Of a stretch of DNA of 64,000 nt, positions 38,636 through 64,000 are shown piece by piece; the first letter of the stretch is position 1; the number at the start of each line of letters is the position of its first letter. The notes beneath the pieces are model-generated. The model made no database searches. It was given only the letters and a program-made list of their open reading frames with translations, and had not been told where the DNA came from. Origin of the DNA: Clavaria fumosa (Eukaryota > Basidiomycota > Agaricomycetes > Agaricales > Clavariaceae); assembly GCA_951802425.1 (NCBI GenBank), contig OX637796.1, positions 3,720,001 through 3,784,000 of the forward strand. The letters run 5' to 3'. A program made the position numbers and the translations under genes.

Positions 38636-39472
38636 CCCCCTTCCAGCTGTCGTTCCGTGAAAGGGCGTATTTTCGAAGCCTTGTAGCTGCGACTCAGGTA
38701 TGGGCACAGCCACCCACTGGTTGATGAACTTGAAAGGCTGAATGTGTGGGATGAATGTGTAACTGTGGTCAGACCTCTCTAATGTCTCTGATCTGTGTTT
38801 TATGTGACCCTGTCTCATCAGCAGAATCATGGCCCACTTTGTTACCTTGCTTGGTCAAGGTCCCTCCAAGCCCACAATTGTGGCTGAGTCTGCCAGCTCA
38901 TTGTGTTAAGATCTGATTCTTTGCTCCAAGAGGGAGGGGTAGTGTAGAGGAGACCAAAAAGGGCAAAGGCAAAGCTGGAGTGGAGCAGAGTCCAAGCAGA
39001 GTCCAGATTGGAGTTGCATGAGGACTTCTCCTCTACACAAAAGGAAAGAACTAGAAGGGGGTCAAAGGGTGGGACTGTGGCCTCAACTTATGGGTTGTGC
39101 CACCACATGTATACATGTCCCAATTTAACCTTGCTGGTACTTTGCTTTCCAGGACAAGGAAGGATGAAGTCTGAAGGGAAATCGCCCAGAGTCTGTCAGA
39201 GTCTGCCGGAGTTTTGTGGAACTTGTCAGGACTGTCAAGAACAGTGAGGACAAAGTCCCTTAACACACAGACCAAGTGACAAGGACCAGAAATAACATTA
39301 ATATTTGAACTGAGGATCATGGAGATACATGGGGGCTTATATGCTACTAGGGTAGGGCATAGGGCAGACTGTAAAACATGAGTACATCAAATATCTACAG
39401 TAATTTCACCTGAGGATTGGGAAGGCATAGATGATACATGTAAGGCAAAGAATAAGTTCCCATGGGCAGTGG
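38636..39472. other. Boundary region between genes and transposon block
   Basis: About 840 bases without a supported gene. It must hold the promoter of the DUF1741-like gene. AG-rich segments such as GGAGTGGAGCAGAGTCC recall the repetitive DNA right of element A (53.1-53.7 kb). The last five bases (39,468-39,472, AGTGG) are the left target-site duplication of element A. Confidence 0.5.
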
Positions 39473-39775
39473 TGTCAGACTTAGTCTCATGCTCACACAA
39501 CTCAATGTAAGGTCAATGATGACAATACTAACATAAGGGGAAAAGGGTACAAGTAGGAAAAAGACGTAGTATATATAGCAGGAGCCCCAGGAGTTGCCAG
39601 TGTTCCCACGCTCAGACCCCATGAGTCACGTGATGCGCCCAGGCCCGGGTCATGTGACTTTTGCATTACATAATCTGCCACCTGTCCAGGTCACATGACT
39701 TTCCCACGATCTTCCCACATCTATTTCGCAACCCTCCCTCTTGCTTCTCAGGTGCTTATGTAAGCAGTCCTGACA
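39473..39775 (-). repeat. 3' LTR of element A
   Basis: 303 bp, TG...CA ends. In sense orientation it carries CTATATATACTACGTC (TATA) and ATGTTAGTATTG, the site complementary to the primer-binding site (antisense copy at 39,523-39,534). A purine-rich stretch lies just inside the element (antisense of CACCCCCCTCTTAAGG), as expected for the plus-strand primer. Confidence 0.9.
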
Positions 39776-41106: not shown

Positions 41107-41111
41107 CCATG

Positions 41112-41454
41112 TGTTACAATCTCACCACGTCACCCCCCTCTTTTCCTTTTCACCATATCACTGCCCTCCTTTTCTACCCTTCACGTCTCCCCTTCTCTCA
41201 TATCACATGCCTCATGCCGTGCCCCTCCTATGTTATCACACGTGAGCCATCCCCGGCCTCGCCTCCTATGCACGGACTACACGCTTCCCCCATGCTGCGT
41301 ATGACTCACCCCCCCTGTAGTATATAAGTAGCCGTACCCACCTGTAACAATCCCTTAGGTTGTTACTTCCTATCACATACCTCCTTTGCTCCTATTCAGC
41401 TGACTCTGCCTGAGTTCCTCGAATACCCGGGAGTCAACGCGACAATTGTTGACA
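41112..41454 (+). repeat. 5' LTR of element B
   Basis: TG...CA ends. It contains a TATA box (AGTATATAAGTAG, about 41,318-41,330). AGGTTGTTACTT follows at 41,357-41,368 and is the predicted RNA 5' end, because it pairs with the sequence just after the LTR. Confidence 0.92.
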
Positions 41455-41465
41455 AGTAACAACCT
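41357..41465 (+). promoter_or_regulatory. Self-priming pair of element B: predicted RNA 5' end and primer-binding site
   Basis: AGGTTGTTACTT (41,357-41,368) is the exact reverse complement of AAGTAACAACCT (41,454-41,465), which starts at the last base of the LTR where a tRNA-binding site would normally lie. The first site is about 35-40 nt after a TATA box. This is the arrangement known from Tf1 of fission yeast, where the 5' end of the RNA folds back to prime reverse transcription. The complementarity is seen directly; the mechanism is inferred. Confidence 0.75.
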
Positions 41466-41494
41466 CTCCCCCGCCTACCTCCTCACGGACCTAG

Positions 41495-42115
41495 GCACCC
41501 CCACCCTGCCCGAGCCGAAGCAAGGCTTGCGTATTCGGAGAAGACACACTGGCACGCTTTTGGACGGCGTACGAACGATTTGTCAGGAGGAGAGCCCTCT
41601 TTGGACTGGACCAGGAAACGGACTTTGAACAATTAACACCACCGAGCACACCGTATCGAAGCTACGAAAGCTTCCAGTACCCGAGACACTCCGAGGCTGC
41701 TCAGTTGGCGCCTCGCTACCACTTTGCCACGAAAAGGATTTTTGTACCGCAGGACTTCGCGCGGAACAACCCGTTGACTATCGAACACGCCCCCGACTGG
41801 CGAATATTCCGAAGAACACTCGTAGAGAAGCTACAAGCAGTGGCTGACGAACAGACACACGCAGACGAAGACACGGAATTCCTCCAAGGAAACGAGGATT
41901 TCACAGATTTCGCTAGTGAGAGTGACTACCACAGCGCGCTTGAAGAACTCGAGGAACCGACACACTTGTCTGTGACAACGCAGACCGACGAAGAACCCCT
42001 TACACACCGATCCACCGAAGCGCAAACCGACCTTACATTCGGTTCGCTACAAGATCGCCTGCGTATAAACCTTTTCCAAGACCCACCCCGAATTTGGCTC
42101 CAAGACCTCGACTGA
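41495..42115 (+). CDS. ATG-less open frame in the leader of element B
   Basis: The frame is open for 207 codons from the stop at 41,492 to TGA at 42,113-42,115, four bases before the gag ATG. It has no Met codon, and I found no ATG in any frame between 41,357 and 42,119. The would-be product contains FGLDQETDFEQLTPPSTPYR, APRYHFATKRIFVPQDFA and a strongly acidic second half (DEDTEFLQGNEDFTD). It does not resemble a known domain. It could be translated from a near-cognate codon or after splicing, or it could be non-coding. Confidence 0.4.
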   Translation, partial: APPPCPSRSKACVFGEDTLARFWTAYERFVRRRALFGLDQETDFEQLTPPSTPYRSYESFQYPRHSEAAQLAPRYHFATKRIFVPQDFARNNPLTIEHAPDWRIFRRTLVEKLQAVADEQTHADEDTEFLQGNEDFTDFASESDYHSALEELEEPTHLSVTTQTDEEPLTHRSTEAQTDLTFGSLQDRLRINLFQDPPRIWLQDLD

Positions 42116-42119
42116 ATAA

Positions 42120-43427
42120 ATGGCTGACGCCGCCCCCGCACCTGCCCCTGCCCCCGCACCTGCCCCTGCCCCCGCAGCGGCACCGATAACGTTGAATTTG
42201 AAAATCGCCCCCTACTCGGGAGAGCGAACAGAGTTCCAAACCTTCCTCCGCAGTCTCCACCTGGAATTCAGGGTGAACGCTGCCAGATATCCCACGGACT
42301 TCCTCAAGGTGGTTTTCACCTTGAGCAATATGACAGAAGGCTACGCTGCAGAGTGGGCAAATCAAGCTGCCACGGTTCTGCTGGAGGAAGGAGGAGAGCA
42401 GGTCATCTGGGCGACCTTTGAAGCGAGAATGAGGGAGGCCTTCTCCCCCATTGAAGACCAAGCCCTGGCGGTCCAGAAGATCAACCTCTTCAAGCAAGTG
42501 CAGATGGATGCTGCACAGTTTTTCCAGAAATTCGAAACGCTCATGAACCAGGCCGGCTACGACGAAGAGACGCACTGGAACGTAATCCACGCACTGCTAA
42601 TGAGGGCCTTACACCCTAAACTGATGGAGAAAGTGCTCTCCTGCGCCGAGCAACCCGCGGATTATCAAGCTTTCCGGGTGCTCACGATACGATTAGACCG
42701 CCAGCACCAACTACACACAGCGGTACAAAGAGAAATGCGAGCCCAAACGGCACCTGCTCCTCGCCCCGCCTGGAACCAACCCGCGCAAAGACTGCCTCCT
42801 CAGAACCGATACTGGCGGTCGCCACAGTGGCAACCGCAAGCCGTATACCCGGGACCAAACCAATGGAGTGCACCGCCCGCACAACAACCCCAACAAGCGC
42901 AATGGCAGTCACGTGCGCCGCAACAGCAACAACAACAACAAGGACTGCCACCTGCACAGTGGAACAGGCAGCCCCCGCCCGGAACGAGACAAGGCACTCC
43001 GATGGACACAAGCCGAGGAACCGGCCCCCGTCGTCCGCTCATTTGCCATAATTGCGGACAGGTTGGTCATCCAGCACGACTCTGCCCTGAACCGCCCCAA
43101 CGCCGCTCCACCCCCCGACAACAGGCGAGGCTCGGCAACGCATTCGAAATGCGTTCCCCTCCCGGATATTATACGCCCCCTCTCTTTTCCCCTTACCCTG
43201 TTCCTGCGTACCCCGCTTCGCACCCGGCTTCCCTTACCTCATTCAACCCATCGTACGCCGCCTCGACTGCTGGGCAGAACGACTTTGAAGAAATGGAGAA
43301 CACCATCGCGCAGTTGCGGGACCAGCTGCACATCCAACAGAGGCCCAGGGCACCGACACCTGGACCAGAGACGACTGTAGCAACGTCGAATGCCGGAGAC
43401 GAGGATTTTCCGCAAGGATCCGCCTGA
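42120..43427 (+). CDS. gag: Gag polyprotein of element B (435 aa)
   Basis: Starts at the first ATG of the predicted RNA. An Ala-Pro repeat N-terminus is followed by a retrotransposon gag capsid-type region (APYSGERTEFQTFLRSLHLE, FFQKFETLMNQAGYDEETHW). A Gln/Pro-rich linker and one CCHC zinc knuckle CHNCGQVGHPARLC come next, and the protein ends in a coiled-coil-like segment (MENTIAQLRDQLHIQ). It forms the virus-like particle. The pol frame overlaps its 3' end in the -1 frame. Confidence 0.9.
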   Translation: MADAAPAPAPAPAPAPAPAAAPITLNLKIAPYSGERTEFQTFLRSLHLEFRVNAARYPTDFLKVVFTLSNMTEGYAAEWANQAATVLLEEGGEQVIWATFEARMREAFSPIEDQALAVQKINLFKQVQMDAAQFFQKFETLMNQAGYDEETHWNVIHALLMRALHPKLMEKVLSCAEQPADYQAFRVLTIRLDRQHQLHTAVQREMRAQTAPAPRPAWNQPAQRLPPQNRYWRSPQWQPQAVYPGPNQWSAPPAQQPQQAQWQSRAPQQQQQQQGLPPAQWNRQPPPGTRQGTPMDTSRGTGPRRPLICHNCGQVGHPARLCPEPPQRRSTPRQQARLGNAFEMRSPPGYYTPPLFSPYPVPAYPASHPASLTSFNPSYAASTAGQNDFEEMENTIAQLRDQLHIQQRPRAPTPGPETTVATSNAGDEDFPQGSA

Positions 43428-43453
43428 GTGCTAAGGCAGGATCCTTCTATATT

Positions 43454-46400
43454 GTGCCCGCTCGTCGCCATGTAAAACAGTCCATGAATAACATTCCCCT
43501 ATTCCCATTGTCGAAAGAGGCTGAGAGGGCTAAGCACACCCTCAAGGACCTCACCCCAAAGAAGCTCCCAGGATACAATGATGATGTGGACTGGGACAGA
43601 GACCCCAAGACCACATATGGGAGAGGAGGAGAACGACAACTAGACATGCCAGGATTCGTAACCACACTGGACACTAAGGAAACCCACGACATCAAGTTAC
43701 TAGTCGACTCTGGCTGCACGATGTCCGTCATGAACCTAGAGTGGGCTGTGGCTAGGAAAATAAACCTTACGAGACTCGAGACGCCTATAGTATTCAAGAA
43801 TATTGATGGGACTATGAATATCTCTGGGGCCTTCAAACATTCGGTAACCCTAAGACTCAATATCGGAGGTCACGTCGAAGTGAAACAATTCTTGTTGGGA
43901 CAAGTCACCGGTCACCCGGCGATTCTGGGGCACGATTGGCTACGGTACCACAACCCCAGCATCCGATGGTTTGAGAAATATATCCGCTTCGACAAGTGCA
44001 AGAAAAAGGACTGCCATATTGTAGATTACGGCTATGGCTTTCGAGGCCTGCACGATACAGCAACCGCGTCTGACTGGAAAACCTTATACCCTCAGGTGTT
44101 TGCTGGAAAGACTGGCCAAAAACTGCCAAAGTCCCTGCCGGGAATTGATTACGAGATCAAGTTCAAGAACGACCCTGGCTTCTTGCGCTCGAAAGTCTAC
44201 CCGCTGACCAACAGGGAAGACGAAGCTTTGAAAATGTGGCTCAAAGAAAATTTGGAGAACGGCCGACTAGTCTGGGGAGAATCGGACTATGTTAGTCCGA
44301 TCTTCTTCAAAGATGAAGGGGACAAGCTACGACCCATCATTGACTATAAGCACTTGAACTCGTTTTGTGTCAAGGACATATACCCGCTGCCAAGGATTGA
44401 CGAGACAGTAGCAAGCCTAAAGAAGGCCAAGGTGTTCACAAGTGTAGACGTGGAATGGGGCTACTGGAACGTCGCGATGGCCAAATGGGCGCAACACCTG
44501 GCCGCCATAATCACCAAGTACGGCACGGTATGGCCCACCGTCATGCAATTCGGATTGATGAATGCCCCTTCAGTCTTCCAAAGAAGGATGAATTATATCT
44601 TCCGCACATTGATAGCCACTGGAAAGGTGTTCGTGTACATCGACGATATTCTTGTGGCAACGGAGACGATCGAGGAACACCGACGCTTACTACACGAAGT
44701 ATTCAGGATATTGCTAGAAAACGACCTCTGCGTCTGCGAATCGAAGTGCAAGATAGAGCAGTCGGAGGTCACGTTCCTGGGGCTGCTGATCTCGGAAGGA
44801 AATATTCGACATTCACCCAAAAAATGCAAAGGGATAGCCGACTGGCCGGTGCCGAGGAACAAGCATGCCCTCCAAAAGGGGATTGGTCTACTAAACTACT
44901 TCCGGAGATTCATACAGGGATTCGCTACCGTCGCCAAACCGCTATACGAACTACTGAGCGACAACGCACCGTATATCTGGACAGACCGACAAGAACGAGC
45001 GTGGAAACGCCTGATCGATATATTGCAGAGCGATGTAGTGCTGGCGATCCCACAAGATGAAGGCAAGTGGAAGATGGAAGTAGACGCGAGCAATTACGCC
45101 ACCGGAGGGGTACTATCACAGCAACAACCCGACGGCGTCTGGCGACCCGTAGATTTTATTTCGAAGACCTTCTCTCCGGCAGAGATGAACTATGCGACAT
45201 ATGATAAGGAATTCTTAGCAATCATCAGGGGACTAGAGGAGTGGCGCCACTACTTGCTAGGGGCCAAGGACCCTTTCGAAATCCACACCGACCATGCAAA
45301 CCTTCAGTATTTTCAAAAAAGCCAAAAACTCAACCCTCGACAGACGCGATGGCAATCAAAATTACAGTGCTTTAATTTTGAAGTGAAATACAAACCGGGA
45401 AAAACAAATATGAAGGCGGACGCTCTCTCCCGACGGCCGGACCACTGGGAGGGAACAGACAAATACGAAAAACCCTTAGTACAGGTTTTCCCGGCCCAGC
45501 GCCTTGCTACACTCTTAATCCCCGAGCCGACAATTCACCAATTGCTCCTGGAGGCACATGCAAACACTGTGCCGCCTAAAGCGATACCCTACGAAAAAGG
45601 AGCAGATGGACTTTTCAGACATGAAGGAAAGGTCTGGGTGCCCCAAGACCTAGTACACAAGGTGCTAATGGAGCTACATGACTCCCCACTCGGAGGGCAC
45701 CCTGGACCCGAGAAGACGTTGGAAAGTGTCACCCGACAGTTCACGTGGCCAGGAGCCAAAGAAGACGTAACGGAGTATGTGGACAGCTGCGAAAAATGCC
45801 AAAGGACGAAACCTGACCGCACGAAGCGACGCGCGCCCCTGCACCCCCATGCAATACCGCCCTGCCCGTGGCATACGATCACTTGGGACCTTATCGGGCC
45901 GTTATCAAAGTCTGCTACCCATAATGCCATCCTTGTAATATGCGACAAACTCACAAAGATGACCTTACTGGAAGCCACAGACACGAAGCTCACGGCGCTA
46001 GGAGCAGCGAAAATCCTACGGGACCGCGTACTCCGTAGCCATGGAGTGCCCTGCAAGGTGATAAGCGACCGAGGATCTCAATTCGTCTCAAATTTCATGG
46101 AGGAATTTTATAAAATTATTGGCATAAAAGGAAACCCGAGTACCGCCTACCACCCGCAAACCGACGGACAGACGGAAAGAATGAACCAGGAGATAGAAAT
46201 ATACCTGCGTTCATACGTGGACTTCATGCAAGACGATTGGTCGGACTGGCTACCCACTGCGGAATTCGCCTTGAACAACCGACAGCACTCCGCGACCAAA
46301 TATAGCCCCTTCTTCTTAAACTATGGTTTTCACCCTCGTATGGGTGATATTAGCTTGCCCGACGTGCCGCATACCCCGGAGGCCTCTGACTTCGCCACAA

Positions 46401-46960
46401 AACTACAGAAGGCCAGAGAAAATGCGAAGAAAGCCATGGAGAAAGCCGCGCAATATATGAAAACCGCTTACGATAAACACAAAAATACAAAAACATTGGA
46501 CTACAAGAAAGGCAACCTGGTCTGGCTGGACGCCACCAACCTGAACATGGAACGACCATCAGAAAAACTCACGGACAGAAGGGTTGGCCCTTTCGTGGTG
46601 GTGGAGAAGGTGGGACCGGCCGCTTACCGACTCAATCTACCAGCAACTTGGAAGATCCACCCGGTGTTCAACGAGCTACTACTTACGCCGTATAAGGAAG
46701 GAAAGTTCCCCAATCAGACTCCAGACGAACGCCCACCTCCCGAATTAATCGACGACCACTTGCAATACGACGTGGAAGAAGTACTGAAGAGCCGGAAACA
46801 CAGACGTAAGTTGCAGTATCTGGTGAAATGGGCCGGCTATCCCCACGAGGACAACACGTGGGAGCCAAAGGCAAACCTGAAGAAAGCGGCGGAAGCGATT
46901 GCGGACTTCCACCGAAAGTACCCTGAAGCGGCACGTGCTCTCACGGTGTCTTTTGCCTGA
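43454..46960 (+). CDS. pol: Pol polyprotein of element B (protease, RT, RNase H, integrase, chromodomain)
   Basis: The frame is open from about 43,052, so it overlaps gag by roughly 375 nt in the -1 frame; the first ATG is near 43,484. Domains in order: aspartic protease (LLVDSGCTMSVMNLEWA), reverse transcriptase with the active site VYIDDILVA, RNase H (VDASNYATGGVLSQ, HTDHANLQYF), integrase zinc finger (H..H, CEKCQRTKPDRTKR), the DDE core (WDLIGPLS, ISDRGSQFVS, STAYHPQTDGQTERMNQE), a GPY/F module (RRVGPFVVVEKVGPAAYRL) and a C-terminal chromodomain (LQYLVKWAGYPHEDNTWEP). No stop interrupts it. Expression by -1 frameshifting is likely, but no classic slippery heptamer was recognised. Confidence 0.92.
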   Translation: MPARRHVKQSMNNIPLFPLSKEAERAKHTLKDLTPKKLPGYNDDVDWDRDPKTTYGRGGERQLDMPGFVTTLDTKETHDIKLLVDSGCTMSVMNLEWAVARKINLTRLETPIVFKNIDGTMNISGAFKHSVTLRLNIGGHVEVKQFLLGQVTGHPAILGHDWLRYHNPSIRWFEKYIRFDKCKKKDCHIVDYGYGFRGLHDTATASDWKTLYPQVFAGKTGQKLPKSLPGIDYEIKFKNDPGFLRSKVYPLTNREDEALKMWLKENLENGRLVWGESDYVSPIFFKDEGDKLRPIIDYKHLNSFCVKDIYPLPRIDETVASLKKAKVFTSVDVEWGYWNVAMAKWAQHLAAIITKYGTVWPTVMQFGLMNAPSVFQRRMNYIFRTLIATGKVFVYIDDILVATETIEEHRRLLHEVFRILLENDLCVCESKCKIEQSEVTFLGLLISEGNIRHSPKKCKGIADWPVPRNKHALQKGIGLLNYFRRFIQGFATVAKPLYELLSDNAPYIWTDRQERAWKRLIDILQSDVVLAIPQDEGKWKMEVDASNYATGGVLSQQQPDGVWRPVDFISKTFSPAEMNYATYDKEFLAIIRGLEEWRHYLLGAKDPFEIHTDHANLQYFQKSQKLNPRQTRWQSKLQCFNFEVKYKPGKTNMKADALSRRPDHWEGTDKYEKPLVQVFPAQRLATLLIPEPTIHQLLLEAHANTVPPKAIPYEKGADGLFRHEGKVWVPQDLVHKVLMELHDSPLGGHPGPEKTLESVTRQFTWPGAKEDVTEYVDSCEKCQRTKPDRTKRRAPLHPHAIPPCPWHTITWDLIGPLSKSATHNAILVICDKLTKMTLLEATDTKLTALGAAKILRDRVLRSHGVPCKVISDRGSQFVSNFMEEFYKIIGIKGNPSTAYHPQTDGQTERMNQEIEIYLRSYVDFMQDDWSDWLPTAEFALNNRQHSATKYSPFFLNYGFHPRMGDISLPDVPHTPEASDFATKLQKARENAKKAMEKAAQYMKTAYDKHKNTKTLDYKKGNLVWLDATNLNMERPSEKLTDRRVGPFVVVEKVGPAAYRLNLPATWKIHPVFNELLLTPYKEGKFPNQTPDERPPPELIDDHLQYDVEEVLKSRKHRRKLQYLVKWAGYPHEDNTWEPKANLKKAAEAIADFHRKYPEAARALTVSFA

Positions 46961-47265
46961 GTGATCACACGCTCAGGGTCGAACACCTAAAAAGAAAACC
47001 GCAAGCAACCTTACCGACCGAACACCTTCTCCCTCTCCCCTTACAACCTACACCCACTGCCATGCCGCCCGAGCGCACCCCTCAAACCCCACGCCGCGGA
47101 ATGTACGCCCGCCGTGCCGCAGGATGGCCGAACCACCTGCCACGCCCCCCTCCCGCTGAGACCACCCGCCAACGACCCGCACTTGACCTGCGACCTGGAC
47201 CGGACCCGTGAGGCACGCCCCCGGCCCTCCAGCGCCCACCGTCGTCCCCCGGGACAACTGCTCGC

Positions 47266-47814
47266 ATGCGCCATATCTTAGACGCGGTGCGGATCCCCCA
47301 TGCACGCCGAGTTTTAGGGTTAGACCCCCCACCGCTGATGACGGACGACCCCCCTTCGCGCATACCGCAATTTCGACAAAACCGAGAGCTCCTGGAGCCT
47401 GAGGACGACGTTTGGCTCCGCAGGATGGCCGAGCGGCTCAGCGTGAGCTTTAGCCGTGCCATGTGGACCGAACTGCGAGGACTGCAGTTTGAACAGCAAC
47501 GACGCGTCCTCCGCGCTTCTCCCGTCCTCGTCGAGATATGGGTGAACTCTCGGAGCTCAAGACTGCGATTCGAGGTTCCGTTGCCGCCGGAGCCTATCCT
47601 ACATGAAGAATGGGCCGTACACCACAGTCGCACAGGCCCCCCCTGGGTCATACCCGTGTCCACCGACGTCATGACCCCGTGGATTATCCCCGCCGACGCC
47701 TACGAACACCCCCTCGTGCCCGACACACACGACACGAGTCTCGACCCACCCACCGAACTCGAGCCGCCAACCGAACTACCACCGCGCGAACACCAGGAGA
47801 GCCCGGAAGCCTAG
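47266..47814 (+). CDS. Additional ORF between pol and 3' LTR of element B (182 aa)
   Basis: An ATG-started frame of 182 codons in the place where env would be in a retrovirus. The product has no signal peptide and no TM segment. It contains PEDDVWLRRMAERLSVSFSR, MWTELRGLQFEQQRRVLRA and a Pro/Glu/Thr-rich end (PPTELEPPTELPPREHQ). I do not recognise a domain. It ends 38 bases before the LTR, just ahead of the polypurine tract AGGAGGGGGA (47,840-47,849). Confidence 0.55.
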   Translation: MRHILDAVRIPHARRVLGLDPPPLMTDDPPSRIPQFRQNRELLEPEDDVWLRRMAERLSVSFSRAMWTELRGLQFEQQRRVLRASPVLVEIWVNSRSSRLRFEVPLPPEPILHEEWAVHHSRTGPPWVIPVSTDVMTPWIIPADAYEHPLVPDTHDTSLDPPTELEPPTELPPREHQESPEA

Positions 47815-47852
47815 CGGGTCCGTCGGGACGCCGGACCACAGGAGGGGGACTA

Positions 47853-48195
47853 TGTTACAATCTCACCACGTCACCCCCCTCTTTTCCTTTTCACCATATC
47901 ACTGCCCTCCTTTTCTACCCTTCACGTCTCCCCTTCTCTCATATCACATGCCTCATGCCGCGCCCCTCCTATGTTATCACACGTGAGCCATCCCCGGCCT
48001 CGCCTCCTATGCACGGACTACACGCTTCCCCCATGCTGCGTATGACTCACCCCCCCTGTAGTATATAAGTAGCCGTACCCACCTGTAACAATCCCTTAGG
48101 TTGTTACTTCCTATCACATACCTCCTTTGCTCCTATTCGGCCGACTCTGCCTGAGTTCCTCGAATACCCGGGAGTCAACGCGACAATTGTTGACA
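47853..48195 (+). repeat. 3' LTR of element B
   Basis: 343 bp, nearly identical to the 5' LTR. The three visible differences (CGT/CGC-type change near the middle and AGCT/GGCC near the 3' end) suggest recent insertion. Confidence 0.92.
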
Positions 48196-48805
48196 CCATG
48201 TGATTTCTGCCTTCCGCCAGAGTCCCATCCGATCTCTCGTCCACTCATCATCAAGCTCCTCCGGCTTCTGCACATATACCACGCTGTTTTTCTGGAGTAG
48301 CGTCTCCATCTCCATTGTGAACAATGTCCAGGTCTCAGCCTCTGGGAAGACCTGTACTGGTGCATCCTCCTCCACCATCTCTCCATAATCTGGCCTCCAT
48401 GAGAGTGCATCAGCTTTCGTGTTTGACTTCCCAGTATGGTACTTGATCTCGAAGTCAAAGCACTGGAGCTCTCCAACCCAACGGACCTGCCTCGGTTTCA
48501 ACTTCTGGGGCTTCCGGAAGTACTGGAGGTTAGCATGGTCCATCCAGATTTCGATAGTCTCTTCCACCCCAATCAGGTAAGCCTGCCACTCACGTAGTGC
48601 CCAGATTACAGCCAGGAACTCCTTGTTGTACACATCGTAATTCTTCTCAGCTGTGGTGAGGGCCTTGGAGATATAGTCTACAACTCTCCAAGTCCCATCC
48701 ACCTGCTGCTGCAAGAGAACTCCTCCAGTCGCCAAGTTGCTCACATCCGTTTCTACCTTCCATCTCCCTTTGTCTTGTGGTAGAGCCCAGACCAGGGCCA
48801 ACACT
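48196..48805 (-). pseudogene. Element A RNase H and connection segment
   Basis: Minus-strand coding sequence LPQDKGRWKVETDVSNLATG, NYDVYNKEFLAVIWALREW and MDHANLQYFRKPQKLK is the RNase H part of pol, followed by the linker up to the integrase. The left end is the insertion point of element B, the right end the insertion point of the hAT-like element. The frame is open here, but Asp in the TDHANLQ motif is read as MDH and other missense changes are present. Confidence 0.8.
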
Positions 48806-52126: not shown

Positions 52127-52779
52127 CACAGACCCTGGTGGTGGTGATGGGGTTTCAGGGACGTTGGTAACAGGGGAATCGGGGGGGAGCTGGGCTCAAC
52201 CCGGTCTCGGTCATAGACGCTGTAAATAAAATTACAGGCCTTGGGCACTCAGGATTTCTTTGATCTCTTAGCAGTCCTGTCCTCTCAGGCTGCTCTCTAG
52301 GTACTTAGGTACTTATAGAACTCTTATTCTATAAAGCTGTTTGCTAGCGTGGGGCCCAAATGGTGTCCCAGGTGGTTGCTCCACAACTCCTAATGAGTTG
52401 CCTGTGCGCCCTTCTGACAATGGTCACAGAGCAAGGGCCCTGTCCACTGGACCAGGAAACTACAGAAAAACTATGGAGAGGGCTTTTCCTTGCCCTGTAC
52501 ACTACACGATTCACTGGTATGTAGCTGTAAAACAAAGATCCAGGCCTTGGGCACTCGGTATCACTTGGGGAGGGTCACAGTAGACTTCCTCTGGGTCTGG
52601 TCATGTGTATCTACACACAGTAAAAATTTCATGCAGTTCTGTTACACACCACAGGCAGGGTAAAGAAGAAGAGGATGAGGGGGATAAGCTGTGACAGAGT
52701 GTGACAGTTTGAGATAGGGGTCCAGGCTAGCTGGGTTGGGACATGGGGCTAGGGTGGATTGGGTTTGATGTTAGTATTG
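52127..52779 (-). promoter_or_regulatory. Leader and primer-binding site of element A
   Basis: Directly inside the 5' LTR the sense strand reads CAATACTAACAT (antisense at 52,768-52,779). It is fully complementary to ATGTTAGTATTG in the LTR, 12 of 12 bases. The leader also holds two copies of a motif GAGTGCCCAAGGCCTGG (sense) that are conserved in element C. No gene is supported. Confidence 0.7.
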
Positions 52780-53082
52780 TGTCAGACTTAGTCTCATGCT
52801 CACACAACTCAACTTAAGGTCAATGATGACAATACTAACATAAGGGGAAAAGGGTACAAGTAGGAAAAAGACATAGTATATATAGCGGGAGCCCCGGGAG
52901 TTGCCGGTGTTCCCATGCTCAGACCCCATGAGTCACGTGATGCGCCCAGGCCCGGGTCATGTGACTTTTGCATTACATAATCTGCCACCTGTCCGGGTCA
53001 TGTGACTTTCCCATGATCTTCCCGCATCTCTTTTGCAACCCTCCCTCTTGCTTCTCAGGTGCTTATGTAAGCAGTCCTGACA
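52780..53082 (-). repeat. 5' LTR of element A
   Basis: 303 bp, about 95% identical to the 3' LTR by eye. The TATA region and the ATGTTAGTATTG site (antisense at 52,830-52,841) are both conserved. Confidence 0.9.
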
Positions 53083-54213
53083 AGTGGGCATTGTCCCATA
53101 GGTTGCTAACCATGGACTAGTGCCAGGGAACATGCTAGAAGTAAAGTCCATGCAGTCTGAAGGACCAATATCAAAGTCTGACAAAAGTCTGGACTGGAGC
53201 TTTGGAGTTGGAGCTGGAGCAGAGATAGAGCAGAGCAGAGTTCAGGCAGAACTGTGTTGGAGATGCCAGAGATGCATCAGAGTTGCATTAGAGGTGCTTC
53301 AGAGGTGATTAGGTGACTGGATAGGGCCATGACAGTATCAGAGGTGTGGAGGTGAGGGAGTCAGAGTTTTGGAGGTGAGGAGTGGAGGTGTGGAGGTGAG
53401 GAATTGAAGTCAGAGTGGAGGTGCAGAATTGGAGTTTTGGAGTGGAGTTTTGGAGGTGAGGAAAACAGAATTTTTTAGGTTCAGAGTGGAGTTGCAGAGG
53501 GAGCAGAAGTGTGGAGGAAGGAGGTGTGGAATTGGAGTCAGAGTGGAGGAGTGGAGGAGTGGAGGAGTGGAGGTAGCAGAGGTAATGGAGTCAGAGTTGG
53601 AGCAGCAGAGTGGAGGAGTGGAGATGGTGGTGTGTGGAGGGGGGGGCCAGAAAAGGTTGGAGATGCTGGGGGGCTTGAGGACCTATTGTAAGTTCACTCA
53701 CCCCCCCTCCTACAAAAATTCTTCATCTTAAGAAAAAAATTTCTATGTTTTACTAAGGAATTGTCAAGAAGTGGGCTAGAGTGGACAGAAGAGTCAAACA
53801 AAAACAGGAAACAAGGAGTGTTGGAGTTGTACAAAAGGCAACAATGTATGAACAAGATTTTGGAGTTTTTGTGAAGTCAAGAAAAGTCAGAGTATCAGAG
53901 TATCAAAGAATCAGAAAAAAGCAGAGTTTCGGAGTTTTGGGGTTTGTGAGGATTGGAGTAGTAAGGAACAAGAGGACATAAGGAGTGTAGCAATGTAGTA
54001 AGGAAACAGAATTTTGGAATTTTGGAGTTTTTGGAGGATCAGAGCAGGGTGGAATTTTGGAATTTCAGAGATTTTTGGAGAAGCAGAGTTTGCTTGTGCC
54101 ACCCACCTTGCTTGTGCTGCTGCTCCCCTCACTCACACTGCCTGCCTCACTCAAGCTGCCCATCTAGTGGACCATCTGCCCCACTCTCCCTCAGTTTGTA
54201 GTTTGTCAATTGT
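53083..54213. other. Low-complexity, GGAGGTG- and TTTTGGAG-rich repetitive DNA
   Basis: The stretch 53,330-53,640 is made of GGAGGTGTGGAGGTGAGG-like units. About 53,880-54,080 repeats TTTTGGAATTTTGGAG-like units. From 54,136 a Pro/Leu-type repeat (GCCTGCCTCACTCAAGCTG) begins that recurs at 55,430 and 55,545. Short open frames are by-products of repetition. Confidence 0.6.
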
Positions 54214-55394
54214 CACTGCAGGCCCCAAGCTGGGTGGAAATCACCACAAAAATAACCCTAAAATGTGGTGAATAGCAATGGCTTCCTAGGTGAAATTCAC
54301 CAGGACTAGTTGATAATCAAGGTAGATGAATGGGTGATTTTCACCACATATATGACCAAATTCACCCACTGTTCTTTGGGTGAATAATACTACAATTCAA
54401 GTGTATTTTAAACTGATCTATAATAGGTGAATTTCACTCTATCACAAGTGCATTTTAAACTGATCTAATAGGTGAATTTCATGTTGGTTTTTGGGTCATC
54501 TTAGCCATAATCTTAGGTGTTTTTCACTCTCTTTCACCACAAGAAATTGCACAAAATTAATTTGTTGATGATATCTTGAAACTGTATTGGTTGATAATCA
54601 GGTAAATCAAATGGGTTATTTTTCAGCACATATATGACCAAATTCACCTGCTGCTCTCCAGATAAATGTCACTGCACACATTTTAACTTGATATTTGAGG
54701 TGGTTTCTACATACTTCTAGTGATTTTGACTATATCTCCAGGTATTTTTTTAGCCTCTAAATTATGCACTCAATGGGAGTTGAACTCAAGTGCTCATAGA
54801 ATTGGACTCAACCCACAACTGCTATGTTACCCATTACACTACAGTCCCCATCTAGACAATAAGATCTTGTGGCTTAATGTCACTCAAATTGAGAGATGTA
54901 TCACTCAATATCCTCCAGTTTAATATCACTTAGATTGAGAGGTGTATTGTATCACTCAAAGTCCTCCAGTTTAATCACTCAAATTGAGAGGTGTATTATA
55001 TCACTCAGTATCCTTCAGTTTAATATCACTCAATATCCTTCAGTTTAATATCACTCAAATCAAGGGTGTGTATTGTATCACTCAATATCCTCCAGCTTAA
55101 TATCACCCAAATCAAGGAGGTGTATTGTATCACTCAATATCCTCCAGCTTAATATCACTCAAATTGAAGGTGTTTTGTATCCTTCAGTTTAATATCACCC
55201 AAATTAAGGGGTGTATTGTATCACTCAATATTCTCCAGTTTAATATCACTTAAATTGATGGGTGTGTTGTATCACTCAATATCCTCCAGCTCAATATCCC
55301 TTAATTCCAAAATCACCCATCACCTGCTTTTTGGGTGAAAGTCTTAAATCATCTGACCAAATGGTGATATCAACCTGCTATTGGGTCCATAGTG
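54214..55394. mobile_element. CACTA-like non-autonomous DNA transposon candidate (1181 bp)
   Basis: The ends read CACTGCAGGCCCCAA (left) and CACTATGGACCCAA (right, reverse-complemented), flanked by TGT on both sides (54,211-54,213 and 55,395-55,397). This interrupts a unit of a local tandem repeat whose sequence resumes afterwards. Many subterminal copies of GGTGAA/TTCACC in both orientations are present, as is typical of CACTA (CMC/EnSpm) elements. The inverted ends are imperfect, so this call is an inference. No transposase is present. Confidence 0.45.
54880..55310. repeat. AT-rich minisatellite
   Basis: About seven imperfect units of 45-60 bp with the core GTATTGTATCACTCAATATCCTCCAG followed by TTTAATATCACTCAAATTGA. 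Units vary in length by partial deletions. It lies inside the CACTA-like candidate. Confidence 0.8.
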
Positions 55395-55397
55395 TGT

Positions 55398-55640
55398 CCT
55401 ACCCCTTAAGGTAAGTCCTTGTTTGCTGCCCACTGCCTGCCTCACTCAAGCTGCCCATCTAGTGGACCACCTGCCCCACTCTCCTGAGTTTGTAGTTTGT
55501 CAATTGTCCTATCCCTTAAGGCAAGTCCTTGCTTGCTTCCCATTGCCTGCCTCACTCATGCTGCCCATCTAGTGGACCACCTGCCCCACTCTCCCTCAGT
55601 TTGTAGTTTGTCAACTGTCCTACCCCTCAATGTAAGTCAT
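55398..55640. repeat. Tandem repeat of about 115 bp
   Basis: The segment CTGCCTGCCTCACTCAAGC...GTTTGTAGTTTGTCAATTGTCC occurs at about 55,430-55,505 and 55,545-55,620, and once more left of the CACTA-like insert at 54,136-54,213. The linker CCCTTAAGGTAAGTCCTTG is shared between units. Confidence 0.7.
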
Positions 55641-58919: not shown

Positions 58920-59465
58920 CTAAGATTTGTTCTCCTGAACAAACTCCGCAATGGCCTCTTTTGCTCTTGCAAGGTTTTCCAGGGGCTCCCACATATTCTC
59001 CTTGGGCAGGTAGCCAATCCAGCTCACCAGATACTGGACTTTCCCTCTCCACTTCCACTTTGCTAGGACTTTATCAATGTCATACCACTCTCCTCCTTCT
59101 ATGAGCTCAGGCAGTGGACAGACAGATGAGGGGTCCCCCCAGAAGGGCTTGAGCAAGGCCTTGTTAAAGACCAGGTGGATTTGCCAAGTTGGGGGAAGCA
59201 TGAGACGATAGGCGGATGCCCCTACCTTCTCCTCCACTGGGAAGGGGCCGACAGACTTGGGGCCAAGCTTCTTTGAGGGGTCGGAGGGGGAGATTCTGCA
59301 AGTCCAGGTATACCAGATCTCCTTTCTTATAGATCTCTGGTTCCTGGGAATGGTCATCGTAGGTCATGGAGTCAGTGCCTTGGCCTTTTTGCAGGATCTC
59401 CCGAAGTCAGTCACAGGTGGAGGATACCTTAGTGAGGAACTTGTTGGCAGCCAGTATGTTGGAGC
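58920..59465 (-). pseudogene. Element D: truncated gypsy integrase C-terminus with chromodomain
   Basis: The minus-strand frame (58,920-59,357, with a disturbed continuation to 59,465) encodes KKGDLVYLDLQNL in one frame and PKSVGPFPVEEKVGASAYRL plus a chromodomain-like VQYLVSWIGYLPKENMWEP in the other. A frameshift therefore lies near 59,270. The upstream part of pol is missing because element C begins at 59,466. Confidence 0.7.
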
Positions 59466-59755
59466 TGTTAGGATCGCTTATGTAAGCCATCCCAAAGTGC
59501 AGTTGTGGAGAAACTGGGGAGGGTTGTTGGAAGGTCACATGACCTGTGGCTGTGGTCAGATTACATAATCGTAAGATCACATGACCTGGGCCTGGGCGCA
59601 TCACGTGATCCGAGAGGTCCGAGCGTGGGAACGCCGGCAAATGCCGAAGCGTTCGCTATATATACTACGTCTTTTCCATTCTTGTACCCTTTTCCCCTTA
59701 TCTTAGTATTGTCGTCATGACCTTACGCTTAAGTTGTGTGAGACCCAGTCTGATA
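59466..59755 (+). repeat. 5' LTR of element C
   Basis: Starts TGTTAGGATCGC and ends AGTCTGATA. The homologous ends in A are TGTCAGGACTGC and AAGTCTGACA. Boundaries were set by this alignment, since the second LTR is not available. Confidence 0.7.
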
Positions 59756-59767
59756 TAATACTAAGAT
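59700..59767 (+). promoter_or_regulatory. Self-priming pair of element C
   Basis: ATCTTAGTATT (59,700-59,710) in the LTR is the reverse complement of AATACTAAGAT (59,757-59,767) just after the LTR, 11 of 11 bases; the next pair would be G-U. In element A the same sites read ATGTTAGTATTG and CAATACTAACAT, so a G to C change in one arm is matched by C to G in the other. Confidence 0.75.
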
Positions 59768-60329
59768 CCGCCTGTCCGCCCTAGCCCCGTGTCCTAACCC
59801 GGCTAGCCTGGACCCTTAATTTCAAACTGTGACACGTTGTCACAGCTCAGCCCCTATCATCCTCTTCTCCTTTACCCTGCCCGCGGTGTGTAACAGAACC
59901 GCGCGAAATTTTTACTGTGTGTAGATACACGTGACCAGACCAGGAGGAAGTCAACTGTGACCCTCCCCAAGTGATACCGAGTGCCCAAGGCCCGGAACTT
60001 TGTTTTACAGCTACGTACTAGTGAATCGTGTAGTGTACAGGGCAAGGAAAGGCCCCTACATAGTCTTTCTGTAGTTTCCTGGTCCAGTGGACAGGGCCCT
60101 TGCTCTGTGACCATTGTCAGAAGGGCGCACGGGCAACTCATTAGGAGTTGTGGAGCGACCACCTGGGACACCATTTGGGCCCCACGTTAACAAAAGTTTC
60201 ATAGAATAAGAGTTCTATAGGTACATAAGTACACAGAAGAGCAGCCTAAGAGGACAGGACTGTTAAGAGATCGAAGAAATCCTGAGTGCCCAAGGCCTGG
60301 AACTTTATTTACAGCATCCAGGGCCTGTG

Positions 60330-63300
60330 ATGGCAGACCATGTCGCCCCGCCTGTAGCCCAACCTATGAGGCTTGACCTATCTGTTGCCCCCTTTGATGG
60401 GCAGAAAAGGAACTTCCGTACGTTCCTCCGATCCCTTCGCCTCCTGTTTATGGCGAACCCGACTGTCTATGCTGTGGACCTGGTGAAGGTCCTTCTTGCT
60501 CTGAGCAAAATTACTGGAGAAGGATTCGCTGCAGAGTGGGCGAATATGAAGGCAGAAGAGATCCTGGGTAGTGGCGAGGCCGGAACCTGGGCAGAGTTTG
60601 TGGAGGAGATGAAGCGCGCATTCGATGACCCGAATGACCGTGCGACTGCCCTTGCCGATATTGCAGGGCTGAAACAGGGTGCCATGACAGCACCAGAGTT
60701 CTTTGCAAAATTCGAGACGCTGTTCCGACGGGCGAAGTTGAGTGCAGAGAAGGACTCAGGAATCCTAGTCCATTGGCTGGAGTTGAACCTGAGTAGGAGG
60801 TTGGTGGAGAGAATCTATGGTGTCTCCCCGATGCCAGAGACATATGGAGAATGGAAGGTGCTGGCTGAGAGGCTTGATGCCCAGCAAAGGCGACTGGATG
60901 GGATACTCACGGAACGGACACCGCGACCCACTGTGACCCCCGCGCGACCCACCACGACCCTACCGCGACCTGCCGTGACCGTTTCGCAACCTCTTGTGAC
61001 CCCTCTGCTGTGTACTCCAGATGTGGCCATGGCCCGAGGATGGGCCCCTGCTGATGAGAGATGTTGTTTCCGATGCCACCAGACTGGCCATGCTGTCCGT
61101 TTCTGCCCCCTGCCTGATACACGTCTGCAGGTCCCAAGGGCCCAAACCCGGGCAGCACCATGTGCCCCCCAAATGGCGGAGGGATATGAGAAAGAGATTG
61201 CACGGCTCCGAGCCTGCATAGAGCTGTGTGAGAGAGAGAGGAGGACTCCCACTGGGGAGAAGAAGTGTGCCAGCCCCCTTTCCGTCCCTGTGCCTGCTGC
61301 AAGTATACCCCGATATACTATCTTGCAGCGGAGACATACCCGAATTGGGGTTGAGGTGAAGGAGGAAGTGAGACTGGCAGAGCGCCTAACCAGAGTGCGG
61401 CCAGAAGTGCGGAAACATGTGCCACGAGAGCTAGCCATCCAGGTGCACTTGGAGGCTTTCAGCACTGGCAAAGGGACCACAATGAAGGCCCTTGTCGACT
61501 CAGGGTGCACCAACTGCTTCATGGATTTGGAGTGGGCGAAAGGAGTGGGACTGGAGCCATCTCTCCTGCTGAACCCAATCACCATGTATAATGTGGATGG
61601 GACACAGAACAGGAATGGAAAGGTCCGGTATGGGATAGAGGTGCTGGTGAAAGTTGGTGACCACCAGGAGCGGATCCACTTTCTGCTGGGAAAGACCCAG
61701 TCCCACAAGGTCATCCTTGGGCATGACTGGCTCAAGCGGCATAACCCGGATATCGACTGGCAGAAGGCAGAGCTGAGCCTTACCCGCTGCCCCCCACAGT
61801 GTTCCCCATCCCCTCGAGCCTCTGCACCCCTGAAAACGAGTACCCTCGCATCCACGAGTATTCTGGACACCCGTTTTCCCAACTCTGGCCCTACCCCCGA
61901 TTGGCCCAGCCGCTACCCTTTGGTGTTTAGTGAAGCGAAGTGGGATGAACTTCCCCGCTCCCGACCAGACTTCGATATTAAGATCGAGTTCAAAAAGGAC
62001 CCTGAGCACCTCTCCTCCAAGCTGTATTCTTTGACACGGCAGGAGATGGTGGAGATGAACCGTTGGGTGGATGAGCAGCTTGCTTCTGGACGAATCCAGC
62101 CCTCAAAATCCCCGTATGCCAGCCCCTTCTTCTTCAAACATGAGAAGGACAAACTGCGGCCAATCATCGACTACTCGAGGCTGAATGCACACCTGATCAA
62201 GGACAAGTACCCCCTCCCCCGCATCCGAGACACAGTGGATGTGCTTAAAGGAGCGTCGATCTACTCTAAGATTGATGCAAAGGGAGGTTTCCCATCTATG
62301 CAGGTCTGGCCCGAGCACCAGCACCGCTGCGCCTTCCTGACACCCCGTGGACTCTTCGAACCAGCTGTCATGTGGTTTGGACTGCAGAATGCCCCTGCTA
62401 CCTTCCAACGCTTCATGAATCATGTGTTGAGGGAGGAGATTGCAGGAGGACATGTGAGGGCCTATGTGGATGATGTCATTGTGTTTGCAGAGGACTTGGC
62501 TACACACCGGTACTGGATGGATCGGGTCTTGAGGAAGTTTGGAGAGAATGGGTTGTGTCTCAAACTCAGTAAATGCGAGTTTGAGAAGAGCGAGATCATC
62601 TTCCTGGGGATGAAGATCTCCCACAACAGACTAGAGCATGATCCGGCCAAGGGTGCGGCAGTCCGAGATTGGCCACGTCCCAAGAATGTGAAGGATGTCC
62701 AGAGGTTCAATGGAATGCTGAACTACCTCCGCCGACACATCCCGAATCTTTCTGCCCGGGCAAAGCCACTCTTCCGGCTGACTGGGAATGTTCCATGGAA
62801 ATGGGAGGAGGAGGAGGAAGCAGCCTTCCGAGATCTCCGCCAGGCACTCGTATCGGCCCCGGTCTTGGCTCTGCCTCAGGACAAAGGGAGATGGAAGGTA
62901 GAGACAGATGCAAGCAACCTGGCAACTGGTGGAGTGCTCTCACAGCAGCAGATGGATGGAACCTGGAGAGTTGTTGACTATATCTCCAAGGCCCTCACTG
63001 CAGCTGAGAAGAACTATGATGTGTACGACAAGGAGTTCTTGGCTGTGATTCGGGCACTTCGCGAGTGGCGAGCATACCTCATTGGAGCAGAGGAGACGAT
63101 TGAGATCTGGACGGACCATGCAAACCTCCAGTACTTCCGGAAGCCCCAGAAGTTGAAGCCGAGGCAGGTTCGTTGGGTTGGAGAGCTCCAGTGCTTTGAC
63201 TTTGAGATAAAGTATCGCACTGGCAAGTCGAATACAAAGGCAGATGCACTCTCCCGGAGACCGGACTATGGAGAGATGGTGGAGGAGGATGCACCGGTGC

Positions 63301-64000
63301 AGGTTTTCCCGGAAACGGAAGTCCGTGTGTCATTCACATCGGAAATGGAGACGCTACTCCAGAAAAATAGCGCGGTACACATACAGAAGCCGGAGGAGCT
63401 TGATGATGAGTGGACACGAGATCGTGCTGGACTCTGGCGGAAGGGGATAGTCACTTGGGTCCCCCTAGGAGCTCGTGAGGCCGTTCTTGAGTTTGAGCAT
63501 GACCTCCCCGCTGCTGGACACCCTGGGCCCCGGAAGTTGAGAGCAGCACTAGTGAAGGGTTATTGGTGGCCGGACATGGTAAAAGATGCGGATCGGTATG
63601 CCCAGGGGTGTGAGACATGCCAGCGGACAAAGCCCGACCGTACCAAGCGTGCTGCCCCACTGCACCCCCATCTGGTGCCCAATGGTCCCTGGTCAGTGAT
63701 TTCATGGGACATAGTCGGTCCCCTCCCCCTCTCCCGTGGACATAATGCCATCCTTGTTATTGTTGACAAATTCACGAAACGGACACTGCTCGAAGCGATT
63801 GGGCTCGACCTCACAGGACTTGGAGCGGCGCGTCTCCTCCGGGATCGAGTGTTTCGTGACCATGGAGTCCCTCACAAGGTTGTGAGTGACCGGGGGTCCC
63901 AGTTTGTGTCCCGCTTCATGAAGGAGTTCTACTCCATGATCCGGGTAAAGGCAAATCCAAGTACTGCCTTTCATCCACAGACTGATGGACAGACGGAACG
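60330..64000 (+). CDS. gag-pol: Gag-pol polyprotein of element C (single frame, 3' end outside window)
   Basis: From ATG at 60,330 one frame runs to the window edge (1223 codons) and I saw no stop. Order: gag (MADHVAPPVAQPMRLDLS, APFDGQKRNFRTFLRSLRLL), CCHC knuckle CFRCHQTGHAVRFC, protease (ALVDSGCTNCFMDLEWAK), reverse transcriptase with RAYVDDVIVFAEDLATH, RNase H (VETDASNLATGGVLSQQQ, WTDHANLQYFRKPQK), integrase zinc finger (CETCQRTKPDRTKR) and the DDE core (SWDIVGPLPLS, VVSDRGSQFVSRF, STAFHPQTDGQTE). Gag and pol are fused in one frame, as in Tf1, unlike element B. Catalytic residues appear complete. Confidence 0.92.
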   Translation, partial: MADHVAPPVAQPMRLDLSVAPFDGQKRNFRTFLRSLRLLFMANPTVYAVDLVKVLLALSKITGEGFAAEWANMKAEEILGSGEAGTWAEFVEEMKRAFDDPNDRATALADIAGLKQGAMTAPEFFAKFETLFRRAKLSAEKDSGILVHWLELNLSRRLVERIYGVSPMPETYGEWKVLAERLDAQQRRLDGILTERTPRPTVTPARPTTTLPRPAVTVSQPLVTPLLCTPDVAMARGWAPADERCCFRCHQTGHAVRFCPLPDTRLQVPRAQTRAAPCAPQMAEGYEKEIARLRACIELCERERRTPTGEKKCASPLSVPVPAASIPRYTILQRRHTRIGVEVKEEVRLAERLTRVRPEVRKHVPRELAIQVHLEAFSTGKGTTMKALVDSGCTNCFMDLEWAKGVGLEPSLLLNPITMYNVDGTQNRNGKVRYGIEVLVKVGDHQERIHFLLGKTQSHKVILGHDWLKRHNPDIDWQKAELSLTRCPPQCSPSPRASAPLKTSTLASTSILDTRFPNSGPTPDWPSRYPLVFSEAKWDELPRSRPDFDIKIEFKKDPEHLSSKLYSLTRQEMVEMNRWVDEQLASGRIQPSKSPYASPFFFKHEKDKLRPIIDYSRLNAHLIKDKYPLPRIRDTVDVLKGASIYSKIDAKGGFPSMQVWPEHQHRCAFLTPRGLFEPAVMWFGLQNAPATFQRFMNHVLREEIAGGHVRAYVDDVIVFAEDLATHRYWMDRVLRKFGENGLCLKLSKCEFEKSEIIFLGMKISHNRLEHDPAKGAAVRDWPRPKNVKDVQRFNGMLNYLRRHIPNLSARAKPLFRLTGNVPWKWEEEEEAAFRDLRQALVSAPVLALPQDKGRWKVETDASNLATGGVLSQQQMDGTWRVVDYISKALTAAEKNYDVYDKEFLAVIRALREWRAYLIGAEETIEIWTDHANLQYFRKPQKLKPRQVRWVGELQCFDFEIKYRTGKSNTKADALSRRPDYGEMVEEDAPVQVFPETEVRVSFTSEMETLLQKNSAVHIQKPEELDDEWTRDRAGLWRKGIVTWVPLGAREAVLEFEHDLPAAGHPGPRKLRAALVKGYWWPDMVKDADRYAQGCETCQRTKPDRTKRAAPLHPHLVPNGPWSVISWDIVGPLPLSRGHNAILVIVDKFTKRTLLEAIGLDLTGLGAARLLRDRVFRDHGVPHKVVSDRGSQFVSRFMKEFYSMIRVKANPSTAFHPQTDGQTE

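Follow-up and report, generated by a model that had tools for sequence, protein, structure and literature searches.

Coupled variation between LTR and primer-binding sites suggests self-primed reverse transcription in chromodomain retrotransposons of Clavaria fumosa

LTR elements in the window

The analyzed window, a stretch of 64,000 nucleotides from the Clavaria fumosa assembly GCA_951802425.1 (contig OX637796.1, positions 3,720,001 to 3,784,000), carries the elements A, B and C, which are delimited by long terminal repeats (LTRs) and target-site duplications (TSDs; Table 1). A further family, D, lies outside the window and is represented by the fetched locus L020.

Element C runs beyond the window end, where its partner LTR (L001:5490-5779) is 100% identical to the 5' LTR and its full-length Gag-Pol is a single frame of 1503 aa (L001:967-5478). 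Pfam identifies gag, RT, RNase H, integrase, SH3_Tf2-1 and Chromo domains in this frame, which also contains a protease, and the domain order is Gypsy-type (gag-protease-RT-RNase H-integrase) with a C-terminal chromodomain (PF00385, E 9.5e-14). At least 39 places in the genome match positions 59466-59767 over their full length at 99-100% identity (40 of 1545 candidates scored), and in five C copies the two LTRs are 98.6-100% identical; C copies are thus numerous and young. Among the 120 relatives of the C polymerase listed, those with a name are mostly agaricomycete proteins, accompanied by some algal and animal ones, which points to a mushroom-forming fungus as the probable host. The plasmid collection returned no match.

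Element A is split by the nested element B, inserted at 41112-48195, and its RT-integrase pieces are interrupted by stops. A-type elements have also moved recently, since one A-type copy (L023:3612-9504) has LTRs that are 100% identical. Element B shares the Gypsy-type gene order, with a protease below the threshold shown, and its C-terminal chromodomain (PF00385, E 1.8e-16) was recognized by Pfam, the chromodomain having been tested in C and B. Between A and C, the window also contains a 90-nt direct repeat in three copies that are 70-93% alike (54100-55594).

Identity to C in the RT-integrase core is 82-91% in nine of the loci fetched for A-type LTRs, 70% in the tenth (L017), 80% in D and 53% in B. 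In an RT-integrase tree of 22 rows, to which neither the A copies nor Tf1 contribute a sequence, D branches outside C, and B lies outside D; the three fall with proteins from the relatives search, including two (P0010 and P0076) named Tf2-like by their source.

Table 1. Features of elements A, B and C in the window (PBS, primer-binding site; self-primer sites and PBSs are proposed assignments).
Element	Feature	Position	Strand	Remark
A	5' LTR, TGTCAG...CTGACA, 303 bp	52780..53082	-	LTR pair
A	TATA box	52877..52884	-	43 nt upstream of LTR site
A	Self-primer site ATGTTAGTAT	52832..52841	-	
A	Spacer CA, 2 nt	52778..52779	-	
A	PBS ATACTAACAT	52768..52777	-	complementary to ATGTTAGTAT
A	3' LTR	39473..39775	-	95% identical to A 5' LTR
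A	TSD CCACT	53083-53087 and 39468-39472		
B	5' LTR, TGTTAC...TTGACA	41112..41454	+	
B	TSD CCATG	41107-41111 / 48196-48200		
B	TATA box	41321..41326	+	36 nt upstream of LTR site
B	Self-primer site AGGTTGTTAC	41357..41366	+	
B	PBS GTAACAACCT	41456..41465	+	1 nt past LTR end
B	gag ORF, 435 aa	42120..43427	+	
B	pol ORF, 1168 aa	43454..46960	+	SH3_Tf2-1 + chromodomain
B	3' LTR	47853..48195	+	99% identical to 5' LTR
C	5' LTR, TGTTAG...CTGATA, 290 bp	59466..59755	+	LTR pair
C	TSD GGAGC	59461-59465, again past 3' LTR		read directly
C	TATA box TATATATA	59657..59664	+	43 nt upstream of LTR site
C	Self-primer site ATCTTAGTAT	59700..59709	+	proposed RNA 5' end
C	Spacer TA, 2 nt, LTR-PBS	59756..59757	+	
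C	PBS ATACTAAGAT	59758..59767	+	complementary to ATCTTAGTAT
C	Gag-Pol frame (stop to stop)	60267..63998	+	runs open to window end

Coupled change in the LTR site and the primer-binding site

The initial annotation had described, in both A and C, an LTR site complementary to a PBS directly downstream of the LTR, and both pairs were present when their coordinates were rechecked. The PBS is downstream as described, but it does not directly adjoin the LTR: the LTR pairs and the 5-bp target duplications fix the LTR ends (CTGATA at 59755 in C, CTGACA at 52780 in A), leaving a spacer of 2 nt in each element. The position of the sites about 40 nt after a TATA box was borne out, with the TATA start 43 nt before the site in both elements, 36 nt in B and 35 nt in the representative D copy, and the sites of these four representatives all begin with A. 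In D, the site ACGTTGAAAT faces the PBS ATTTCAACGT, located 2 nt past the LTR; for B, we infer the register of the PBS. Of 20000 shuffled LTRs per element, those with a 10-bp complement, anywhere in the LTR, to the 10-mers at offset 0-2 past it numbered 26 for C, 19 for A, 6 for B and 10 for D.

The variable base between A and C is position 3, where the C/G change in the LTR site and the complementary change in the PBS, which had been proposed as compensatory, were both confirmed. Across the genome (48.76 Mb, 17 contigs), 592 pairs of decamers lie 40-64 nt apart and match exactly at all other positions of both decamers. Of these, 589 have complementary bases at the variable position (381 C-G and 208 G-C) and 3 are discordant, and the reversed-pattern control returned 0; exact B site/PBS pairs numbered 77, again with a control of 0. 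In the fetched loci and the window, 81 LTRs carry the site, and 51 of these are 5' LTRs with a PBS, a set from which L005:5731 was excluded because its LTR pair identifies it as a 3' LTR. The full set of 10 pairs is present in 49 of these 51 A/C-type copies, the exceptions being a G-U pair in L114 and an A-C mismatch in L123, and position 3 is G-C in 39, C-G in 11 and mismatched in 1. Because the query used to fetch the A copies contained the PBS, these copies are biased towards an intact PBS, a bias of which the genome-wide counts are independent.

The G-C state is also seen in LTRs whose U5 is short and C-like (L114, L122), and the U5 types suggest that the A/C switch happened once and was then passed on to many copies. 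Since the change is probably single and inherited, the copies do not count as independent events, and the differences between families outweigh the A/C counts as evidence. The LTR group itself is abundant in the genome: the motif surrounding the LTR site of C/A, with up to 3 mismatches allowed, occurs at 1427 sites (reversed control, 0).

Five types (A, C, D, an L016-type D and B) were compared after alignment from the first helix base, and they differ at positions 2, 3, 6, 7, 8 and 10, that is, at 6 of the 10 positions. Differences in the site and in the PBS coincide in position in all 10 pairwise family comparisons, with no unpaired difference, and a parsimony count gives at least 8 paired changes, or 7 if the CpG-type change within D is left out. 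That D difference, at position 2 (T-A vs C-G), was set aside as evidence on account of CpG-like steps and unpaired decay at this position. Pairing is perfect in 3 and imperfect in 5 of the eight sampled D copies, six of which are the most divergent ones picked from the copy list, and the losses fall mostly at CpG-like steps.

Twelve stretches upstream of other RT genes yielded a pair only in L080, itself C-type; in the remaining 11, which showed no pair, LTR ends are unlocated and some share sequence, so that they do not amount to 11 independent families. A de novo pair scan also listed pairs outside families A-D; its reversed-sequence control (28 matches) was dropped as invalid, because an inverted repeat, when reversed, stays an inverted repeat. 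Within one library and the terms used, we found no literature on covariation in self-priming elements.

Extent of the helix and rival explanations

The ends of the helix are sharply marked. The base at position -1 is unpaired in 73 of 74 copies (C 10/11, A-type plus L123 40/40, B 15/15, D 8/8), and nucleotide 11 is paired in all 11 C copies, in 10/40 A-type copies, in 8/15 B copies and in 1/8 D copies. These data indicate a helix of 10 constrained pairs in A, B and C, with the next pair free outside C; the 11-12 bp originally described comprise these ten plus nucleotides 11-12. Judged by sequence comparison, such limits are those that a primer made of RNA nucleotides 1-10 would leave. Among 34 distinct A sequences, none of 132 ten-column windows elsewhere is as conserved as the site and one is as conserved as the PBS, and among 14 distinct B sequences 4 of 184 windows reach this level for the site and 4 for the PBS; conservation in D is unremarkable (21/192 windows for the site, 81/192 for the PBS).

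Minimum-energy RNA folds include the helix at 3/3 lengths in A and C and at 2/3 in D, and for B, in which the folded sequence and the constraint began one base late, the helix is present in the drawn fold only. Directly upstream of its self-primer site, element B also carries GTAACAA (41344-41350), which nearly repeats a portion of the PBS and forms with the site a short inverted repeat flanking the presumed transcription start; this repeat is exact in the window B and in 9 of the 14 B copies fetched (L092-L105), and longer in L096.

The presence of the helix in predicted folds would equally suit an RNA hairpin or DNA cruciform with a role other than priming, such as RNA stability, dimerisation, packaging or promoter control, and a covarying helix fits any structural role. 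We nevertheless consider this explanation very unlikely, because one arm occupies the obligatory place of a PBS, 1-2 nt past the LTR, in four families, no tRNA-type PBS was found at that place, and the start of the helix is fixed at one base, 35-43 nt after the TATA start. Shared ancestry, with A and C each inheriting one state and the association reflecting copy number only, is probably the correct account of the 381/208/3 table taken alone, given that the A/C switch appears to have occurred once and that the two site starts lie 58-64 nt apart within the same element. One inherited pair, however, cannot yield 6 of 10 positions changing pairwise among five types with no unpaired differences between them, and ancestry alone is in our judgment highly improbable as an explanation of the whole pattern.

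Priming by tRNA is the commonest mechanism among LTR elements, and a tRNA could act through its 3' end or internally, with the match to the LTR being incidental. The sample against which this was assessed (40 ARAGORN calls from 38 fetched loci) is missing several isotypes (Pro, Trp, Tyr, His and Asp), which leaves this explanation some room. A CCA-ended tRNA nevertheless requires TGG, and TGG is absent within 25 nt past the LTR in A, B, C and D. The longest match of the PBS region to the sampled tRNAs is 7 nt in each of the four families (shuffled mean ~7.5), and the best identity to a tRNA 3' end is 6-8 of 12, or 7-8 when trimmed ends were tried as well (shuffled means 6.2-6.9, maxima 9-11), so that matches to the sampled tRNAs are no better than those of shuffled sequence. 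The initial annotation had named a tRNA 3'-end match as a check on its proposal, and none emerged among the 40 calls. As a PBS change coupled to an LTR change is also unexpected under tRNA priming, we hold this alternative to be as improbable as ancestry alone.

Nine of the 40 ARAGORN calls (in L061, L062, L066, L068 (two), L070, L076, L078 and L079) share a common body, GACCATATAGCTCAGTGG...GTGTGGTCAC or close to it, with differing called anticodons, which suggests a tRNA-derived SINE instead of genuine tRNA genes. Separately, a motif close to TGGTGGCACAACACAT follows TATAYATG-like bases in L081, L082, L085 and L089, at about base 960-990 in element orientation, and has a near match in the window on the minus strand near 39105, directly downstream of the A 3' LTR. 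The similarity of this motif to a tRNA-Val end (12-13 nt, one mismatch) is equalled by 8 of 60 shuffled stretches.

A putative self-primer of the Tf1 type

Taken together, A, B, C and D are very probably Ty3/Gypsy chromodomain LTR retrotransposons of the Tf1/sushi type that prime reverse transcription with the 5' end of their own RNA, as read from their sequences. Of the features that define this type, Gypsy order and a C-terminal chromodomain were found in C and B, and a PBS complementary to the element's own LTR in all four families; the TATA spacing of 35-43 nt supports a placement of the LTR site at the RNA 5' end. Transcription would start at the A located 35-43 nt downstream of the TATA box start, which would make RNA nucleotides 1-10 complementary to the PBS 1-2 nt past the 5' LTR. 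The RNA would then fold back, placing its 5' end onto the PBS, the RNase H of the element would cleave after about nucleotide 10, and the released 5' fragment would serve as primer for minus-strand DNA synthesis into U5. What the sequences show directly is the complementarity, its limits at 10 bp, the coupled change, the domain content and the absence of a match among the tRNAs sampled; the RNA 5' end, its cleavage and its role as primer are deduced. The Tf1-like self-priming initially suggested for A and C is supported by the covariation, the lack of a tRNA match, and the chromodomain and Tf2-1-like SH3 domain of C and B; with B, D and the genome-wide counts added, the covariation extends to further copies and two further families, and the evidence is stronger than the initial annotation stated.

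In Tf1 of Schizosaccharomyces pombe, according to the relevant passages of PMC7175516 and PMC10085805, the 5' end of the RNA folds back to the PBS, and RNase H frees it to prime minus-strand synthesis. The primer is there described as the first 11 bases of the RNA, cut between bases 11 and 12 (PMC7175516), within a three-duplex leader structure, in an element that has a chromodomain (PMC10085805). Like Tf1/Tf2, the elements of C. fumosa have an LTR site complementary to a PBS just past the LTR, a chromodomain and a Tf2-1-like SH3 domain (B and C), a single Gag-Pol frame (C) and an RNA leader predicted to fold with primer and PBS paired. They differ in a constrained helix that appears to span 10 bp, against the 11-base primer of Tf1, and in the separate gag and pol ORFs of B.

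Self-priming has likewise been inferred from sequence for the chromodomain elements Tj1 of S. japonicus and Tosmo/Tcry of other fission yeasts, as far as the consulted sections of PMC4600332 and PMC10085805 relate (chromodomain, PMC10085805); Tj1 transposes, whereas A-D are known here from sequence alone. Among basidiomycetes, the part of PMC7175516 dealing with Tcn1 of Cryptococcus neoformans presents it as a Gypsy element with proposed self-priming, and the title of PMC2864245 assigns it a chromodomain, both of which are paralleled here. For SM-Tcn1, a Tcn1-related spikemoss element, PMC2864245 reports neither tRNA priming nor self-priming. The likeness to Tf1/Tf2 and Tcn1 is drawn from features and descriptions rather than from sequence comparison. 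The self-priming mechanism is already known, fungi included, and A-D very probably add to a known class.

The coupling between the two sites had been taken as strong evidence for selection on pairing. The coupling itself holds, but it need not stem from selection alone, as primer copying would suffice. Retroviruses renew their PBS from the tRNA primer, which is copied in each cycle. By analogy, the LTR decamer may be copied into the PBS in each cycle, constituting a self-renewing primer in which changes in RNA nucleotides 1-10 rewrite the PBS and nucleotide 11 onward drifts, a proposal that we advance tentatively and rate at slightly under even chances. If the primer is copied into each new PBS, the PBS would automatically track the LTR site, and coupling would arise at nucleotides 1-10 and not beyond, with no need for a second, selected mutation. 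Self-priming is required by the selection account and by the primer-copying account alike.

To our knowledge, self-priming has been proved experimentally in few elements, and the hundreds of natural copies in this one genome constitute a covariation test of the primer:PBS helix. The ends of this helix are marked nearly to the base and yield the prediction of an RNA starting at A and a primer of 10 nt. If the primer is indeed self-renewing, the end of the coupling at nucleotide 10 would measure its length, 10 nt as opposed to 11 in Tf1, and the identity of the primer could drift among families with its function kept. The absence of a tRNA-type PBS in such elements, moreover, need not mean decay.
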